Positions 1 through 10,003 of a DNA stretch of 64,000 nt are shown in pieces. Source of the stretch: Bacteroidales bacterium. GTDB lineage: Bacteria; Bacteroidota; Bacteroidia; Bacteroidales; ML635J-15. Position 1 is the first letter of the stretch, and every line of letters starts with the position of its first letter. Below the pieces are notes generated by a model. That model was not told the origin of the DNA. It did not search any database and saw only the letters and a program-made list of their open reading frames with translations. The stretch covers positions 1-64,000 of the forward strand of contig QKHS01000010.1 in NCBI GenBank assembly GCA_003249955.1. Direction: 5' to 3'. The position numbers were made by a program, and so were the translations under genes.

Positions 1-560
1 TCCATGATTTTTATTTGCCTTTGCAGTCCGGCATAATAATTAGTATAATCACTTATCTGCCGCTGAACAGATTCTGTTTTACGTCCATAATAGTCCAGAT
101 CGTCAAAGTTGCGTGAGGTTCTGATTATACGTAAAAGTGACGAGTAGGATTGCTGAAGTTCTCCCAGATTTAAGATTAATGAATCGGGAAAATACTTAAT
201 GTCTGATAGTGTGTCGAGAATGCCTGAAATATAAACAACATCCTGATAATTTGCAGTATTTTCAATTATTGCAATAACAGAATCTCTTTTAATTTTCTGA
301 TTTTCACTGTAAAATATGCATGTTACTTTACCGGAAGCAAATGATTCCAGTGGCACAGGCGGGTTTTGTGTAACAATACTAACCCGGGAAGCTATAATAT
401 CAGGGTACTTAAAAAACCAGCTTCCGGCCAATATTGCTACAATTACCAAAAGGATTACAAGAATACCGGCACGCAGTAACCAGTTGGGAGCAGCACCCAT
501 CACTTCCTGATATTCTTCACTCCGGATTTCTGTTTTGTTTATTTCTTCTGTTTCCTTCAT
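1..560 (-). CDS. HlyD-family secretion adaptor, N-terminal part (runs off left edge)
   Basis: Reading the minus strand from ATG at 560 gives an open frame to base 1 (about 186 residues) that is missing from the ORF track because it has no stop in the window. A short charged N-terminus (MKETEEINKTEIRSEEYQEV) is followed by one membrane segment at about residues 27-47, then a beta-rich stretch and the start of a coiled coil. This is the layout of the periplasmic adaptor of type I/PCAT peptide exporters. It lies downstream of the C39-peptidase ABC transporter on the same strand, so it is probably that exporter's adaptor. A 1.2-kb repeat array separates the two, so it may need its own promoter. 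The C-terminal half is outside the window. Confidence 0.8.
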   Translation of the reverse strand, partial: MKETEEINKTEIRSEEYQEVMGAAPNWLLRAGILVILLVIVAILAGSWFFKYPDIIASRVSIVTQNPPVPLESFASGKVTCIFYSENQKIKRDSVIAIIENTANYQDVVYISGILDTLSDIKYFPDSLILNLGELQQSYSSLLRIIRTSRNFDDLDYYGRKTESVQRQISDYTNYYAGLQRQIKIM

Positions 561-1756: not shown

Positions 1757-3946
1757 TTAATTCCCCAATTCCAACTGATTTTTTACCAATTCATAATATG
1801 CTCCTTTTATTGCTGTTAATTGTTCATGTGTGCCTGTTTCCACTATTTCTCCTTTTTCTATTACTACAATCTGGTCGGCATGTTTTACTGTACTAAGCCT
1901 GTGAGCAACAACAACCACTGTTCGTCCCCTGAAAAACTGATTAAGATTGTCCATAATCTTTCTTTCATTGTTTGCATCCAGAGAATTTGTAGCCTCATCG
2001 AAAAACAAATAATGAGGATTTTTATATACTGCTCTTGCAATAAGAATTCTCTGTTTTTGCCCCTGACTTAAGCCATTCCCTTCACTGCCGATTTTTGTAT
2101 TGTATCCAAGTGGCAAACCTTCGATAAAATCCTGAATATTAGCAACTTTAACAGCTTCCTTTAGTCTTTCCGCATCTATATTCTCTGCCCCTACTGCTAT
2201 GTTTTTTGCAATACTGTCGTTAAAAATAAATCCTTCCTGCATAACTGCCCCAACCTGACTACGCCACCAACTCTGAGAAAAGTTAGTTAAAGGATTTTCA
2301 CCGACAAGTATCTGCCCGCTGTTTAACTCATAAAAACCAAGCATAAGCTTAACCATGGTTGTTTTTCCGCTACCGCTTGTGCCGACAATTGCAGTAATCT
2401 TATTTTCAGGTATTTCCAGACTTACTTTTTTCAAAACCATCTCACCGTGAGGCTTGTCGTACTGAAACTCAACGTCCTGAATTCTAATTGATTTATCGTT
2501 GGGCAGAACTGCAACTTTCTGTTCTTCTATATTTTCTTCATCTGCCTGATTATGAATCTCGCCCAAACGTTCAAGACTTATTTTTGCATCCTGCCACGAC
2601 TGTATAAAACCAATAAACTGGGTAATAGGGGAATTTAACTGCCCGATAATATATTGAACGGCAATCATCATCCCGAGTGTCATGTTTCCTGTTATTACAG
2701 AGTAGGCAGCCAGAAAAGAAATAACCAGATTTTTGCTTTCATTTATAAAAACAGTCCCCAGATTTTGATACTGGCTTAAAGCCAGGCCTTTTATGCTTAT
2801 TTTAAACAAACGAACCTGTATTCTTTCCCAGTCCCAGCGCATTTGTTTCTCGGCATTCTGCAGTTTTATTTCCTGCATACCCTGAATAAGCTGTATTTTA
2901 TTGCTTTGTTCGGCAGAAGCTTCGCGGAACCTTTTAAAATCCAGTTCACGGCGTTTTTTCATAAACAGATAAATCCAGCCTATATACAAAGCTGAACCAA
3001 TTAAAAACACGACAAAAATTATCAGTGAATAATATGCTAAAACCGCCCCGAAAATAATAAGATTTACAAAAGAGAATATCGTGCTGAGGCTTTGTCCTGT
3101 TAAAAAACTTTCGATACGGTTATGATCCCCGATTCGCTGCATTAAATCACCGGTCATTTTTGTATCGAAAAACCCGATTGGCAATTTCATAAGCTTTATA
3201 AGGAAATCGGAAATAAGAGAAATATTTATTCTTGTGCTTATATGCAGCATTATCCATGAACGGATAAAGTCAACCGACATGCGGCTTACAAATAAAACCA
3301 TCTGTGCAATCAGTACCAAAGTGATAAACGACAGGTTATTGTTTGCAATACCATAATCGACAATGCTCTGGGTTAAAAACGGGAATATAAGTTGTATCAA
3401 ACTACCGAAAACCAGGCCGAGAACAAGCTGCCATATAAGCTTTCTGTGTGGTTTAAGATATTTAAACAGGAACCTGAATTTTGTTTTATCGGGCTTTTCG
3501 TCAGCCTGCTCATAAAAAGCGGGGGTAGGTTCCAAAAGCAAAGCAATTCCCTGATTTTCGCCGTTTTTGGTTGTGCTTATCCAATGCTCTGAAAACTCTT
3601 TTTGGGTGTAAGTAATTTTTGAAGATCCGGGATCGGCGACATAAACCTTGTTCTTATCAATTTTGTAAACAACTACAAAATGGTTCTGATTCCAGTGTGC
3701 AATAAAAGGCGTAACTTTTTCTTTTTCGAGATTTTCAAGCGTGGTCTTAACTCCCATTGTCCGCATGCCGATACTCTCGGCAGCATCGCTTATTCCCAGT
3801 AACGAAACTCCTTCACGGGTAATGTATGAACGCTGACGTAATGTTTGCGCAGTGTATGATTTGCCATAGTATTTTGCAATCATACGTAGGCAGGTTGCCC
3901 CGCAATCCATAGCGTCGGGTTGGGAATAATGAGGAAAATTATTCAT
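1757..3946 (-). CDS. C39-peptidase ABC exporter (PCAT) for double-glycine leader peptides
   Basis: Inner-membrane transporter of 729 aa that cuts the leader off a peptide after Gly-Gly and exports the rest. The N-terminal C39 cysteine protease (about 1-140) has the catalytic Cys15 in DCGATC, His89 in NHFVVVY and Asp105 in VADPG. A six-helix ABC membrane domain covers about 165-455. The ATPase domain has Walker A GTSGSGKTT (522-530), signature LSQGQ (626-630), Walker B YLFFDE and an H-loop His at 682. All catalytic residues are present. Its start overlaps the end of the SPASM maturase gene by 8 nt, so the two are translationally coupled. The nearby 79-aa precursor carries a GG leader, its expected substrate. 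Confidence 0.93.
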   Translation of the reverse strand: MNNFPHYSQPDAMDCGATCLRMIAKYYGKSYTAQTLRQRSYITREGVSLLGISDAAESIGMRTMGVKTTLENLEKEKVTPFIAHWNQNHFVVVYKIDKNKVYVADPGSSKITYTQKEFSEHWISTTKNGENQGIALLLEPTPAFYEQADEKPDKTKFRFLFKYLKPHRKLIWQLVLGLVFGSLIQLIFPFLTQSIVDYGIANNNLSFITLVLIAQMVLFVSRMSVDFIRSWIMLHISTRINISLISDFLIKLMKLPIGFFDTKMTGDLMQRIGDHNRIESFLTGQSLSTIFSFVNLIIFGAVLAYYSLIIFVVFLIGSALYIGWIYLFMKKRRELDFKRFREASAEQSNKIQLIQGMQEIKLQNAEKQMRWDWERIQVRLFKISIKGLALSQYQNLGTVFINESKNLVISFLAAYSVITGNMTLGMMIAVQYIIGQLNSPITQFIGFIQSWQDAKISLERLGEIHNQADEENIEEQKVAVLPNDKSIRIQDVEFQYDKPHGEMVLKKVSLEIPENKITAIVGTSGSGKTTMVKLMLGFYELNSGQILVGENPLTNFSQSWWRSQVGAVMQEGFIFNDSIAKNIAVGAENIDAERLKEAVKVANIQDFIEGLPLGYNTKIGSEGNGLSQGQKQRILIARAVYKNPHYLFFDEATNSLDANNERKIMDNLNQFFRGRTVVVVAHRLSTVKHADQIVVIEKGEIVETGTHEQLTAIKGAYYELVKNQLELGN

Positions 3947-5075
3947 TATTTACCAAAAACTTTTTATTCATATCTCTTATTTCAATCGCCTGTTCTTCCC
4001 ATCCCGGATTCTCTACGCGCCATTGCTCAACACTTATCCAACCGGTCTGGTTTTGCCATTTTGCAATATATGGATTATACCCGCATTTTGCCGGCTGTGA
4101 ATAAATGTTTTCCGTATCTTTTATAAATGCCCTGCAATCTGTACATATATGTCTGAATTCACAATCCTGACACACATCTATATCGTCCTTTTTTATAAAC
4201 CACCAATCTTTAAATCCGGGTTTTTCTATTGCTTCGGCAAGTGTTGTGTCCGAAATATGCCCGTAATTGTGTTTCATCGACGGACAATTTTTTATAAATC
4301 CGTCTGAATCAATACAGATTTTGCGGTTAAGACAGGTATTGTGAAGTTGTGATTCGGTGAAATGATCGACTGACATAGAAAAAAACTTAGTATCTACATA
4401 CCCGCATGTTGATTCCGGATTAAAAGCATTAGTTGTAAAATTGATAAATGCCACCTGATCATCTAAATCAACCTTCCTGTTTTCAGGTGAACTAAAAACA
4501 GTAACATTGTCTGTTTTGGGGTAAGTTCTGACAAGATTGGAAACAGACTCAAAATCACCAAACACATCAAAAGCTAAAAATATACTTAAAGTATGAAATG
4601 ACTTACTATAAGCCAACTTTACCAACTCTGTTATTTTATCCCTGTCACAAATTCCTTTAAAAAATCTTAGCTGAAGATGAAAGCAGTAAATATTATCCAG
4701 AGATTCCAATAATTTCGGGTAGTCGGTAGTATTAAAATCTGAAATATCTATAATTGCATTACTTATTACGGACGGGAAATCCCATTCCGGACTAAAATCA
4801 GGGAAAAGTTTGGTTTCATATTTTTCACCAAAATAAGCGTACCTGTTTATTTGCATGAAATCAAAATAGTCAATCAGAATTTTTTCGTGTTCTTTTCCAT
4901 AAAAGTCAATAATATCATTTATTTTCCAATACTTATGTTTTAACATAATCTCAGATAAAGAGTTTGGAATAAAATCTACCTCTGACAACTGAAAATCAAT
5001 TATGGTTGACCTGCAATAGCCAAAAGTTTTAAGGCAACTGCTTATTGGTATTAAATAAGTTTCCCCGTTTATCAT
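3939..5075 (-). CDS. gwsS: SPASM-domain peptide maturase, grasp-with-spasm system
   Basis: Putative RiPP maturase acting with the ATP-grasp enzyme. The last ~100 residues carry a SPASM-type cysteine set: CxxxxxC, NCP, CQDCEFRHICTDC and a final KCGYNP, for auxiliary Fe-S clusters. The radical-SAM CxxxCxxC motif is absent from the visible sequence; from memory this is usual for the family. I choose the start at 5075 (378 aa). The motif order from there (YLIP, CLKTFGYCRSTIIDF, FIPNSL) fits the family's N-terminus, and a separate ORF stops one base upstream. The ORF track extends to 5162, adding 29 residues of unrelated character that overlap that small ORF. It is followed with an 8-nt overlap by the PCAT gene. 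Confidence 0.82.
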   Translation of the reverse strand: MINGETYLIPISSCLKTFGYCRSTIIDFQLSEVDFIPNSLSEIMLKHKYWKINDIIDFYGKEHEKILIDYFDFMQINRYAYFGEKYETKLFPDFSPEWDFPSVISNAIIDISDFNTTDYPKLLESLDNIYCFHLQLRFFKGICDRDKITELVKLAYSKSFHTLSIFLAFDVFGDFESVSNLVRTYPKTDNVTVFSSPENRKVDLDDQVAFINFTTNAFNPESTCGYVDTKFFSMSVDHFTESQLHNTCLNRKICIDSDGFIKNCPSMKHNYGHISDTTLAEAIEKPGFKDWWFIKKDDIDVCQDCEFRHICTDCRAFIKDTENIYSQPAKCGYNPYIAKWQNQTGWISVEQWRVENPGWEEQAIEIRDMNKKFLVNNE

Positions 5076-5076
5076 G

Positions 5077-5265
5077 TTAAAAAAATCTTGATATTGGTTT
5101 GTAAAAAGACCTGTAAAATGATTTTGGATTTTGCAGGTTGGGTTTTGGGACAGATAGAGCATCCCTCATCTCAATAACTCTTGATATTTCGTGTTTTTCA
5201 ACCTTTATATCATGATAGTTAAAGGGGAAATGCTCTTTTATTTTAACCAGATATATTTCTTCCAT
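5077..5265 (-). CDS. 62-aa ORF between the two maturase genes, function unknown
   Basis: ATG at 5265 lies inside the end of the ATP-grasp gene (23-nt overlap), and the TAA at 5077-5079 is separated from the chosen gwsS ATG by a single base. This stop/start arrangement is typical of translational coupling. The product is basic, starts MEEIYLVKIKEHF and ends in an aromatic/basic tail (FYRSFYKPISRFF), with no signal peptide, membrane segment or GG motif. I do not recognise it. It could be a maturase accessory protein, a small precursor, or a chance ORF. Position is the main argument for it. It cannot be translated together with the long form of gwsS without overlap in another frame. Confidence 0.5.
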   Translation of the reverse strand: MEEIYLVKIKEHFPFNYHDIKVEKHEISRVIEMRDALSVPKPNLQNPKSFYRSFYKPISRFF

Positions 5266-6226
5266 TTATAAGTGTTTTTGCAATTTCTTTTTCGATATAA
5301 AAATTATTTTTCCCGCTTAAAAAATCAAACTGCCCAACAGGATTCACTTCGAGAAACCAGTAATCATTATTTTTATCAACTATAACATCCATTGATCCGC
5401 TTTCAAGTTTCATATCCTGCATAAAAACATGTAGTTTTTCTTTAATTTTCAGTGGTAAATTAAAGGGAACATGCCTGTTTTTCCTGTTAGTATTCCTAAT
5501 ATCAGTCTCATTAGAATCGCATGGTGGCAAGGCTGCCGATGCATAAAACTCTCCCAGCAGATAAAATATTCTTAACTCATATTTTTTATCAATCTTATTT
5601 TGAAATAAGGAATATAAAAAACTGTCAGAATCTGATGAATCAATGTTTACATCCATTGTTCCATGTCCAAAGGTGTAATTACTGTCGTAATAGTTAAGAT
5701 TGTCCTGAATATTTTTTGTTATGCATTCACCTTTACTCTCAATAAACGAAAGAAGTTCGTCGCGGGCTTGGGTTATAATAGTTTCAGGAACCCTTAGTCC
5801 TGCTTTTTGTGCTTTAAATAATGCTATCAGCTTGTTAGAATTGTAATGACCCGGATTATTGATATGCTGTTTTGTATCAATGATAAAATTAAAATAATTG
5901 TTTAGGGTTTCAATCTCATTTGAAAGGTGTTGGTTAACTTTTAACGCGATATTATTTGTTCTCAGGTTAAGAGAAGATTCGCCCGGAACGCCAAAAACGG
6001 GATAGCCCCGGCGGCACCATATATAGTCAAAATCTTCCAGGTCAAAAGTATAATCGTTTATCTTTAGTTGTAGCCTTGTTTCACTATCGGTAAACACGAC
6101 ATTCCAAACCAAATCCAGATTATTATCGAAATTATTTATCCTGACAAACTTCTTGTTGTAATAGTTCAACCATGAACAGACTTTGTCTGTGGAAGGATCT
6201 TCCATTTCTCCAACTATTAGTATCAT
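5243..6226 (-). CDS. gwsG: ATP-grasp peptide maturase, grasp-with-spasm system
   Basis: ATP-dependent carboxylate-amine/alcohol ligase of 327 aa, of the kind that makes ester or amide crosslinks in graspetides (microviridin-like). The N-terminal domain contains DFDYIWCRRGYPVFGV. The central lid region includes a glycine-containing loop (TFGHGTMDVN), and the C-terminal active site shows YELRIFYLLG, SMDVIVD (Asp280) and FLEVNPVGQF (Glu293, Asn295), the metal/ATP ligands of the fold. It sits between a secreted protein of unknown role (20-nt gap upstream) and the 62-aa ORF/gwsS. The adjacent GG-leader precursor is the presumed substrate. Which residues are joined cannot be read from the sequence. 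Confidence 0.87.
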   Translation of the reverse strand: MILIVGEMEDPSTDKVCSWLNYYNKKFVRINNFDNNLDLVWNVVFTDSETRLQLKINDYTFDLEDFDYIWCRRGYPVFGVPGESSLNLRTNNIALKVNQHLSNEIETLNNYFNFIIDTKQHINNPGHYNSNKLIALFKAQKAGLRVPETIITQARDELLSFIESKGECITKNIQDNLNYYDSNYTFGHGTMDVNIDSSDSDSFLYSLFQNKIDKKYELRIFYLLGEFYASAALPPCDSNETDIRNTNRKNRHVPFNLPLKIKEKLHVFMQDMKLESGSMDVIVDKNNDYWFLEVNPVGQFDFLSGKNNFYIEKEIAKTLINGRNISG

Positions 6227-6246
6227 CGTAAAAAGATTGTATCAAT

Positions 6247-7383
6247 TCAGTTTTTTTGTGAATTCCATTCTCTCGCCTTACGTATTATTTCCTTTTCCTG
6301 TTCGTCATTCCTGAAGAATAACAATGTCTTACTTTTCCGTCTGTTTACGTAATCAAGAACAATTGGATAATACTGATCTTCGGGCATGTATAATTGAGTA
6401 GCTAAAGAGTTAAAAACAAAACCATAGCTTGAATTTTTAACAGACCAATCAATCTTTTTCATTTGGTTCTGATATTTATCGAGATAAATACATTTTCTTA
6501 ATTTATTTATTTCCGTTAATGCTTTCCTGTCATATCTTTCAACCCAAAAGAATTTGCCATTAATATAAAAGCCATTCTCTTGCAGCGGATACTTATCATC
6601 ATATTTATACCCCATCGGTTTTAAAACGGAAGTAAACAACCTTACGTCAAAATACCCTTGCATTACAGATTCGAGTAACAATGGCAGTATTTCTTTTCTT
6701 TCAGGATTATGAAGGAATATTGTTAATATTTTACGCCAGTTTTCGTAACCACCATATATTTCCTCCGAAATAAAGCCACGTTCTTCGATCAATTTTACCA
6801 AATGAAAATAATTAACCGAATCAATATATTTTATTGTATCATTATAGTTATCATTATATATTATGTCGTTATTTTCTTTTCGGCTTTTCTCCCTTATTGC
6901 CTGATCTTTAGCAACTATGTCTTCAATTTGACGGACAAATGCTGTGTCGCTTACCATTTTTACCGAATCCAGAATTTCTTTAATCTCCGGAATTAATATC
7001 AGGTTTTTATATAAGTCATACGACTCAAAGAAATCTTTCCCTACATTTTTACGCATAAGATTTTCAACACAATAGATTAATCTTGAAGTATCGGGAGTAA
7101 GAGACAATAACTCACAATCTAATGCGTAAAACAAATCTTTCTGAAATGGTATCTTACAATAATTAAATGCTTTAAAATATTTATCTGCAGCTTTATCAAA
7201 ATTATTTTTTGTTATTTCCCGTTCTGCATCAAATATTAAAGCATAATATTCAGAAACGGAATCGTACCTGACCGAATTAATTATCAAACTATCCAGGTCT
7301 GTTACTGTTTTGTTTTGTGTTTTTCCATAATAACTCACAAACATTAATGTAACTAAAAAAAATACCCTAATTATAAATCTCAT
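6247..7383 (-). CDS. Secreted protein of unknown function in the RiPP operon (DUF6624-like layout)
   Basis: 378 aa with a signal peptide (about 1-22, MRFIIRVFFLVTLMFVSYYG). The first third is helical with a TPR-like feel (DKAADKYFKAFNYC). The centre contains a D-S-N...LIEERGFISEEIYGG...FLHNPERKEILPLLLESV pattern that reminds me of DUF6624 proteins. The C-terminus is unlike anything I recognise. It lies between the precursor/hairpin and gwsG on the same strand, so it is probably co-transcribed. A role in periplasmic handling, immunity or sensing of the peptide is possible but is inference from position only. Confidence 0.7.
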   Translation of the reverse strand: MRFIIRVFFLVTLMFVSYYGKTQNKTVTDLDSLIINSVRYDSVSEYYALIFDAEREITKNNFDKAADKYFKAFNYCKIPFQKDLFYALDCELLSLTPDTSRLIYCVENLMRKNVGKDFFESYDLYKNLILIPEIKEILDSVKMVSDTAFVRQIEDIVAKDQAIREKSRKENNDIIYNDNYNDTIKYIDSVNYFHLVKLIEERGFISEEIYGGYENWRKILTIFLHNPERKEILPLLLESVMQGYFDVRLFTSVLKPMGYKYDDKYPLQENGFYINGKFFWVERYDRKALTEINKLRKCIYLDKYQNQMKKIDWSVKNSSYGFVFNSLATQLYMPEDQYYPIVLDYVNRRKSKTLLFFRNDEQEKEIIRKAREWNSQKN

Positions 7384-7403
7384 AATTTATTTAAATAAAA
7401 ATC

Positions 7404-7436
7404 ATCACTCGTGTATTTTTGAATTACACAAGTGAT
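7404..7436 (-). terminator. Intercistronic hairpin after the precursor gene (partial terminator)
   Basis: On the minus strand ATCACTTGTGTA pairs with TACACGAGTGAT (12 bp with one wobble) around a 9-nt loop, followed by GATTTTTATTT. It lies between the precursor stop and the next gene. Such a hairpin would let the small precursor mRNA accumulate above the maturase message, a common design in RiPP operons (inference). Confidence 0.65.
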
Positions 7437-7463
7437 GTAAATTTAATCATATTATCACTCTCT

Positions 7464-7703
7464 TTATTTTATAAAATTTAGCATCTGCTCTTCAGTGATA
7501 TCTCCATCTCTTACAATAACATACTCATTTTCAGTATCTCTTGGCCCTGTGTTACGAAAATAGTCTGTAGACCATTGAATAGGATAATTTTTATCCGGGG
7601 CTCCGGTTTCGTTCCAACCAGGAACTTCTCCGCCAATAAGTTTGCCCAATTCACTTCTTTCGATTTTCTCGAATTTTTCTTCATTTAATTTTTCGAAATT
7701 CAT
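7464..7703 (-). CDS. RiPP precursor peptide with double-glycine leader (GG-Bacteroidales type)
   Basis: 79 aa. The leader MNFEKLNEEKFEKIERSEL followed by GKLIGG matches the Bacteroidetes 'natural product precursor' leader, with the Gly-Gly at 24-25 that C39 peptidases cut after. That would leave a 54-residue core rich in Asp/Glu and Thr/Ser/Lys, the residue types graspetide ligases join. The core holds two related segments, NETGAPDKNY and RNTGPRDTENEY, suggesting two modification modules. It is followed by a strong hairpin. A TAAATTTG box (minus strand, 7754-7747) fits a Bacteroidetes -7 element about 40 nt upstream, but no good -33 partner is seen. Confidence 0.85.
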   Translation of the reverse strand: MNFEKLNEEKFEKIERSELGKLIGGEVPGWNETGAPDKNYPIQWSTDYFRNTGPRDTENEYVIVRDGDITEEQMLNFIK

Positions 7704-7719
7704 AATAAATAATTTTTAA

Positions 7720-7836
7720 TTAGACATTTTGTGAATTATCACATGTCAAATTTAAAAACTGCCACTGCCAAATAATGTCAGTAGAAAAAATATTAAAAAA
7801 GAAACCACCTTTTGTATTTTTAAACCCTGTGGCTCT
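7720..7836 (-). pseudogene. Remnant of the C-terminal end of a third winged-helix regulator copy
   Basis: Translating the minus strand of 7720-7836 gives FKNTKGGFFFNIF...WQWQFLNLTCDNSQNV and then a stop. It aligns without gaps to the C-terminus of the full regulator at 8965 (LKNVKGGFSQNIL...RQWQVFDLTSDNTENA). An in-frame TAG lies just upstream (7837-7839), and I could not trace the N-terminal domain further. It is a decayed 3' fragment too short for the ORF track. It shares the space used as promoter region for the precursor gene. Confidence 0.7.
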
Positions 7837-7901
7837 CTAATTTTATGTGAGTTTTTTTTCGTACATACTTTCAGTTTCTTCTTAATTTTCTATTTCAGAC
7901 A

Positions 7902-8870
7902 TTAGTCTGTTTTAATGCAACGAACATTATATCTCAACAGTTTATTACCATCAAAAATCCGGCATCCCCTTTGGTTTTTGTAAACATATAAAATGTAGGC
8001 TTTATTAGCTATCTCCGGATTTGTAAACCATATTCCTGAGGTTGCACCAAAAAAATGAAACATTTCTGATCCTATGGGATCACAATAACCACCTAATTTA
8101 ATATTCAATCCAACATTTTTATCATCTGTTAAATAATCATATAATTCTAACGGTCCTTTTTGGTAATTTGCCATTAGTAAGTTAATATCATTTAAAGTCG
8201 GGAGCTTCCATCCGGGCGGGCAGGCATTTAATGCAATATCATAGTCATAATATCTGCCATATTCTTTAACCATCACTTCTTTTTTGTAATAACATGAACT
8301 CCCGGTTTCGGTCTCATATCTTAAATTTTCGCCCATCCAGCATTGATTCCCGATCTGCACTGTACTATATGCTTCATTATCTCTTTCATCGTAAAGTGTA
8401 CATCCGCAATCCAGGGGTAAAGTATAAGCTTCTGCCTGCAATACCTCCGAGACGGCACTATCGTTAAATGCCCAGATAAACAACTTATATTTCTTATTAC
8501 TTGCCAGTTTTAACTGGCGAAAACAGGTATCATTATAAAGATTTTCAGCAGTTTTAAAATCATTAACAAAATTAATTTTATAGCCTTTGGCTTTATCAAC
8601 ACGGCTCCACGACCATTCTATGCTGTTACAGGCACATTTTGTTTCTGTTCTAACCGGCCTTGATAGTATAGTATCTGCAAAAACAGAATCCTCAGAATAT
8701 TTAATACCCGGGTGTTTAGCGGTTCCGGAATTAGTGTATTCATTACCTCCTTCAATAAAACCGACGTAATTATCCTGATTTAACAAAACAAACAGTCCTG
8801 TATTGATATCCCGGCTTTTTACAGTCATAACAAACAATAGAAGACTAATCAAAATTAAATTTCTTTTCAT
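7902..8870 (-). CDS. Secreted FISUMP-domain protein
   Basis: 322 aa. Signal peptide (about 1-20), then a fibronectin-III-like segment (about 60-150) opening with a CAC motif. From about 155 to the C-terminus there is a 'Fibrobacter succinogenes major paralogous' (FISUMP, TIGR02145) domain, recognisable from YSTVQIGNQCWMGENLRY, YGRYYDYDIALNACPPGWKLP and a final RCIKTD. These domains occur in secreted or surface proteins of Bacteroidota and Fibrobacteres; no enzyme activity is known to me. No T9SS sorting domain is present, so its final location is uncertain. It may be unrelated to the RiPP genes on either side. Confidence 0.8.
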   Translation of the reverse strand: MKRNLILISLLLFVMTVKSRDINTGLFVLLNQDNYVGFIEGGNEYTNSGTAKHPGIKYSEDSVFADTILSRPVRTETKCACNSIEWSWSRVDKAKGYKINFVNDFKTAENLYNDTCFRQLKLASNKKYKLFIWAFNDSAVSEVLQAEAYTLPLDCGCTLYDERDNEAYSTVQIGNQCWMGENLRYETETGSSCYYKKEVMVKEYGRYYDYDIALNACPPGWKLPTLNDINLLMANYQKGPLELYDYLTDDKNVGLNIKLGGYCDPIGSEMFHFFGATSGIWFTNPEIANKAYILYVYKNQRGCRIFDGNKLLRYNVRCIKTD

Positions 8871-8964: not shown

Positions 8965-9312
8965 TTAAGCATTTTCTGTATTATCACTTGTCAAATCAAA
9001 AACCTGCCATTGACGGATTTTATCAGCGTACAAAATATTTTGAGAAAATCCGCCTTTTACATTCTTAAGATCAATACTTTCTGCATTTTTCGGAAAGAAT
9101 TTAATTTTAAGACTTCCATCTATTTCATATTTATATGACCCGATATAACTATCGTAAACAACAGGACAGCCAATATCTTTTAAAGTTTGGATTATTCTAT
9201 ATATTTTTCTTTCAGAAACTTCAAGTTTTTCTGCAAATTTTTTAGGGGAACCGGTAGCCTTTAACCTTATAAGTTGGTCAACCCTTTCTAAAAGTTCTTT
9301 TCCTTCGGACAT
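8965..9312 (-). CDS. Small winged-helix (HTH) transcriptional regulator
   Basis: 115 aa from ATG at 9312; the track start at 9321 uses TTG and adds three residues. The N-terminal 60 residues form an HTH/winged-helix domain (KKFAEKLEVSERKIYRIIQTLKDIGCPV, then the wing YDSYIGSYKYEID). A ~50-residue tail ends in the QWQVFDLTSDN segment. There is no ligand-binding domain or receiver. As the nearest complete regulator upstream of the RiPP genes it may control them (inference). A truncated paralogue lies 370 bp upstream and a C-terminal remnant 1.1 kb downstream. Confidence 0.75.
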   Translation of the reverse strand: MSEGKELLERVDQLIRLKATGSPKKFAEKLEVSERKIYRIIQTLKDIGCPVVYDSYIGSYKYEIDGSLKIKFFPKNAESIDLKNVKGGFSQNILYADKIRQWQVFDLTSDNTENA

Positions 9313-9321
9313 ATCAATCAA

Positions 9322-9681: not shown

Positions 9682-9867
9682 TTATTTTTTCATATTAACA
9701 CCTTTATAATAAACAACAGGACATCCCATATCTTTCATAGTTCTTATTATTCCGTACACCTTTCTTTCAGAAACTTCAGATTTTTCTGCAAATTCTTTAG
9801 GACAATCTGTTGCTCTCAAACGTATAAGCTGACCCACCCTTTCTAAAAGATCTTTTCCTTCTGCCAT
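9682..9867 (-). CDS. Truncated paralogue of the winged-helix regulator (HTH only)
   Basis: 61 aa, MAEGKDLLERVGQLIRLRAT, strongly similar to residues 1-53 of the regulator at 8965. The helix-turn-helix (KEFAEKSEVSERKVYGIIRTMKDMGCPVVY) is intact. After VVY the match stops and a short unrelated tail (YKGVNMKK) ends the protein, removing the wing and the C-terminal tail. It might still bind DNA as a competitor of the full regulator, or be a decaying duplicate. A TAATTTTG -7-like box lies on the minus strand at 9929-9922. Confidence 0.5.
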   Translation of the reverse strand: MAEGKDLLERVGQLIRLRATDCPKEFAEKSEVSERKVYGIIRTMKDMGCPVVYYKGVNMKK

Positions 9868-10003
9868 AGTTATTTTAATCTCTTTTGTTTTACAAAAAAC
9901 ATCATACTATAAAAATACAACAAAATTAAACCGGCAGTAAAATTACAATAAAAATATCACATTTATTACATTATTTTTATTTATTTTGTTGCAATAAAGC
10001 AAT

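Follow-up and report, generated by a model that had tools for sequence, protein, structure and literature searches.

The minus strand of the window, i.e., the whole 64,000-nucleotide stretch of DNA from a Bacteroidales bacterium analyzed here, carries a real operon, probably a grasp-with-spasm graspetide locus of an already described type. A preliminary description had been unable to place two of its genes in any known pathway. As judged by homology and gene neighborhood, both are recognized companions of graspetide loci and are not peculiar to the window: the 62-aa protein is of the type of the small protein LPL (Makarova 2022, PMC8939145) and occurs in nearly all related loci, whose secreted 378-aa counterpart in the window is a divergent relative of DUF6624 and fits the published features of 'cluster 23'. 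The peptide made is probably crosslinked through its side chains and exported, and would likewise be of a known type.

Layout and identity of the locus

The contig has 69,907 bases within a 4.70-Mb assembly. The genes follow each other in the order GG-leader precursor, secreted 378-aa protein, ATP-grasp, 62-aa protein, SPASM protein, C39 exporter, and HlyD. The six ORFs named in the preliminary description, from the precursor to the exporter, were all present on the minus strand. The interval it gave (3939–7703) contained the genes from the precursor to the SPASM protein, but the exporter gene (3946–1757) lay almost entirely beyond it. Its assignment to the grasp-with-spasm type was borne out by a TIGR04193 match of 290 bits and by TIGR04192 as the top ATP-grasp family.

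The precursor (7464–7703, minus strand, 79 aa) was composed of the leader MNFEKLNEEKFEKIERSELGKLIGG, which ends in GKLIGG, and a 54-aa core without cysteine. TIGR04149 matched it below the threshold (12 versus 25 bits). Precursor homologues with an invariant GG were found in the equivalent place in four comparison loci (L045, L050, L051, and L054), and in the alignment of the five close precursors, G29, S45, D47, and D68 were invariant after the GG. We infer that S45, D47, and D68 are the first candidate residues for a Ser–Asp ester link. Farther upstream, a helix-turn-helix protein (8965–9321, minus strand; PF08279, E 1e-6) is a probable locus-associated regulator, with homologues upstream of the precursors in L043, L050, L051, and L060. 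In this genus, the helix-turn-helix proteins upstream of the precursors (the window, L043, and L050) had a GG-containing C-terminal tail (LKNVKGGFSQN, LNKINGGFFNN) resembling a GG leader site; the resemblance may be coincidental, or the regulator may be fused to a peptide. A FISUMP-domain protein (7902–8870) adjoined the operon; its homologues (42–44% identity) were located inside the operon in L045 and L051, in the interval between the 378-aa gene and the ATP-grasp gene.

The ATP-grasp protein (5243–6226, minus strand, 327 aa), a predicted graspetide synthetase, scored 224.1 bits with TIGR04192, i.e., 6 bits short of the cut-off of 230, and the runner-up family (128 bits) was approximately 96 bits lower. 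It was the sole TIGR04192 match in the genome. Its PDB relatives by sequence were AMdnB (7m4s) and CdnC (7mgv), and the microviridin and chryseoviridin ligases (7m4s, 7mgv, 5ig8, and 5ig9) were homologous to it over nearly the whole length. In the microviridin and chryseoviridin systems, the leader motif lies inside the precursor, and their loci are not known to have a SPASM or LPL partner.

The SPASM protein (3939–5075, minus strand) has about 378 aa from a corrected start and exceeded the TIGR04193 cut-off of 175 bits. The longest ORF (407 aa) starts at 5162 and overlaps the 62-aa gene. Since the TIGR04193 alignment to this ORF begins at residue 39 and the SPASM genes of close relatives begin directly past the stop of the small gene, the start was moved to the ATG at 5075, which is likely the true one and lies one base past the stop codon of the small gene (5079–5077). 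The nearest named relatives of this protein were from Bacteroidales MAGs, and no PDB relative was found by sequence.

The C39-peptidase ABC exporter (1757–3946, minus strand, 729 aa) matched PF03412 (E 3e-37), ABC_membrane, and ABC_tran. It was followed by the first 186 residues of an HlyD-like membrane fusion protein (1–560, minus strand), which is cut by the contig end; this fragment was assigned by homology and shared 60–84% identity with the HlyD-like ORF found after the same exporter in L049 and L114–L116. A tandem array (585–1669) of a 101-base unit, with 10.6 copies and a 90% match, was located between the exporter and HlyD genes.

The closest described systems are the branch 5 ATP-grasp loci of Bacteroidetes (PMC8939145), with the same gene set as the window: a GG precursor, an ATP-grasp, LPL directly before the SPASM protein, a secreted protein (in the window, one that fits cluster 23 by its features), and a C39 exporter. 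These loci correspond to the grasp-with-spasm system TIGR04192–TIGR04193. The window differed from them in its new, divergent precursor sequence, in an ATP-grasp slightly below the TIGR04192 cut-off, in the helix-turn-helix and FISUMP genes close by, and in the repeat array after the exporter. It probably corresponds to graspetide group 14 of Carter 2026 (PMC13097080). The same study described rosaritide MirB–MirC from Actinomycetota, a precedent for a graspetide synthetase relying on a co-encoded partner protein; LPL (50–80 aa) is unrelated to MirC, which is a PpiC-type isomerase.

The two companion proteins

The 62-aa protein (5077–5265, minus strand) was recognized by its position, conservation, and dN/dS, with FPFNY (hPhxh) near the N-terminus and FYKPISRFF near the C-terminus. 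The survey of SPASM loci covered 61 relatives, 395 genomes of the class, and 79 loci from named genomes; these samples overlap. Of the ATP-grasp–SPASM gene pairs, 61 of 64 in one sample and 74 of 80 in the other had a small ORF between the two genes, and most apparent exceptions retained the same C-terminal motif, in a frame that either had no standard start or was interrupted by a frameshift. When the inter-gene gaps were shuffled, an ORF of at least 50 codons arose in only 45 of 1500 trials. The dN/dS of the 62-aa gene against its four closest relatives was 0.10–0.17, and that of the ATP-grasp gene was 0.15–0.17 where measurable. Because such ORFs seldom arise in shuffled gaps and dN/dS is low, the 62-aa ORF is, by these measures, more than a chance frame and under purifying selection. 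A frameshifted piece of the ATP-grasp or SPASM gene was excluded as its origin by the dN/dS and by the separate ORF in nearly all relatives.

In the description of Makarova 2022 (PMC8939145), LPL is a small protein always encoded directly upstream of the SPASM gene, was suggested to be PqqD-like or ATP-grasp-binding, and has an hPhxh motif that was likened to the docking motif of other leaders. Compared with this published description, the 62-aa protein matches LPL in its position before the SPASM protein, in its hPhxh motif (FPFNY), and in its lack of a GG. P14 and K56 were conserved in at least 90% of 31 members. The strict C-terminal pattern [KR]P[IVLF][STV], devised once the first set had been inspected, occurred in 23 of 63 gaps in that set and in 44 of 80 in the other, compared with approximately 5% of control stretches, and the main text of PMC8939145 makes no mention of an FYKPIS-like C-terminal motif. 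Clear copies of the small gene were found in L180 and L188, from records titled Acidobacteria bacterium and Thermoanaerobaculum; these two loci had complete ATP-grasp, LPL, and SPASM sets, beyond the Bacteroidetes range given in PMC8939145. A conserved FYKPIS-like C-terminal motif and the presence of LPL in two Acidobacteriota-type genomes are new details. The predicted structure of LPL was of low confidence and mostly without regular structure; since LPL has no confident fold of its own, a docking role depends on the motif resemblance. A single ORF in L066 (2726–3841), between the ATP-grasp and SPASM genes, had an LPL-like start and then, after a signal sequence, a stretch belonging to the 378-aa family, and may be a natural fusion or the result of stop-codon loss.

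The secreted 378-aa protein (6247–7383, minus strand) had a signal sequence, a TPR-like helical N-terminal part, and a C-terminal domain with a distant relationship to DUF6624. A single-sequence search found homologues in 7 of 61 genomes, 6 of which belonged to the 10 with an above-cut-off TIGR04193 protein (Fisher p 2.5e-5); the two genes mostly shared a contig. With an iterated profile, the family comprised 45 proteins in related loci. Among pairs whose context was complete, 21 of 39 and 36 of 52 (overlapping samples) had a family member on the same strand no more than 4.5 kb away. The preliminary description had proposed co-occurrence of the two genes with the maturases as a check, and this held, with the small gene near-universal and the 378-aa family present in between roughly one half and two thirds of related loci. 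Relatives of the 378-aa protein were also found away from graspetide loci, in L122 (the genome of the window) and L062.

Searches of NCBIfam, Pfam, and PHROGs with the 378-aa and 62-aa proteins themselves returned nothing useful. DUF6624 (PF20329) matched 20 of 41 aligned members of the 378-aa family (best E 5e-20). The window protein was below the PF20329 gathering cut-off and had no direct Pfam match at E ≤ 1, and for this reason it is called only a divergent DUF6624 relative. In a profile comparison, the C-terminal domain of the close clade matched Pfam-verified DUF6624 at E 1.5e-13, with E ≥ 0.45 in 20 column shuffles, and the domain is on this basis a divergent relative of DUF6624. D160, Q161, H225, and R296 were at least 90% conserved across 41 diverse family members. 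The structure model was confident (pLDDT 93), and its comparison with PDB folds yielded nothing at E ≤ 0.001. The secreted, graspetide-linked cluster 23 has a conserved His and Arg (PMC8939145); compared by description, the 378-aa protein fits this type through its secretion and H225 and R296. DUF6624 has been reported in several graspetide groups (Carter 2026, PMC13097080), and we infer that cluster 23 and DUF6624 are the same.

Mosaic structure of related loci

The exporter shared 79–95% protein identity between relatives whose ATP-grasps shared only 30–60%, and the same exporter was found behind other GG-precursor cassettes (L114, L115, and L129). Four loci (L050, L051, L060, and L125) belonged to one genome, in which shared helix-turn-helix tails and exporter starts flanked unrelated precursor–maturase blocks. 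Between L050 and L060, the helix-turn-helix tails had 95.5% DNA identity and the SPASM ends and exporter starts had 89%, whereas the DNA between the tails and the SPASM ends was almost without similarity; the assembly of this genome has 8% contamination, which means that a mixture of strains is possible. At the SPASM end, synonymous differences dropped from approximately 0.8 to 0.0, and the pattern was reversed between L050 and L051. The patterns of identity and synonymous differences point to recombination around the precursor–maturase cassettes. At its end, L060 had a 71-aa stub of the exporter and then a new helix-turn-helix start, and L125 had two further exporter stubs. Such signs of mosaic cassette exchange around these loci are a new detail, as is the absence of CxxxCxxC from 59 SPASM proteins described below. 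In the window, a decayed helix-turn-helix tail (7726–7869) was located directly before the precursor, with a second truncated copy at 9682–9873.

Proposed maturation and alternative readings

The gene content, homology, co-occurrence, and selection described above suggest the following steps. The GG leader would be the part by which the precursor is bound, and the ATP-grasp would phosphorylate Asp or Glu carboxylates of the core, which would then be linked to Ser, Thr, or Lys side chains, with S45, D47, and D68 as the leading candidates. Lacking a radical-SAM cluster motif, the SPASM protein may act as an iron–sulphur partner or a second maturase. LPL would be a dedicated partner docking on the maturases, given that its hPhxh resembles the motif in the leaders of other graspetides, and the FYKPISR-like tail may be its contact with the SPASM protein. 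Cleavage past the GG and export of the peptide, together with HlyD, would fall to the C39 exporter, and the 378-aa DUF6624-like protein would act in the periplasm, either on the peptide or together with it. A more specific version, a split-leader system in which the ATP-grasp-activating leader motif has been transferred from the precursor to LPL and the FYKPISR-like end tethers the SPASM protein, is unlikely on present evidence.

The main suggestion of Makarova 2022, a PqqD-like chaperone that hands the precursor over to the SPASM protein, with no connection to the ATP-grasp, is a possible but somewhat doubtful reading of the 62-aa protein. Its gene is located directly upstream of the SPASM gene, always in PMC8939145 and in nearly all loci here, as this reading would expect; however, the low-confidence LPL model, mostly without regular structure, is unlike a folded PqqD-type domain, and the conserved hPhxh is similar to the motif by which other leaders dock on the ATP-grasp. 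A similar choice concerns the 378-aa protein, which might serve in self-protection (immunity) or as a transport aid instead of acting on the peptide as an enzyme. We consider this tenable, with some reserve: the protein is secreted, unrelated secreted proteins occupy its slot in some loci (L043 and L058), and the DUF6624 consensus parts A..DR and YG are lost in the window protein, but its four highly conserved residues are what an active or binding site would have.

Genuine radical-SAM maturase activity of the SPASM protein, forming thioether or carbon–carbon bonds, is highly improbable, although PMC8939145 calls the family a radical SAM enzyme and the SPASM cysteine pattern is present (CX2CX5CX2-3C in 38 of 59 proteins of at least 300 residues). 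The radical-SAM motif CxxxCxxC was found in none of the same 59 proteins within the first 140 residues, and together with the cysteine-free window precursor, this argues against thioether formation at the window locus. The missing motif leaves fewer possible activities for the SPASM protein, for which a role as an iron–sulphur partner or second maturase would fit the proposed maturation.

In the literature on such graspetides, we found no characterized SPASM-associated graspetide, and a SPASM-type graspetide was not found in PMC9576775. If the split-leader system is true, one small protein would join two maturases, varying precursors would need only a GG leader, and the precursor–maturase block would be swapped as a cassette between fixed flanks. 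The locus, with its LPL and DUF6624-type companions, provides a compact six-gene set for testing, in which candidate residues for the crosslinks are named and the docking of LPL is a specific hypothesis.
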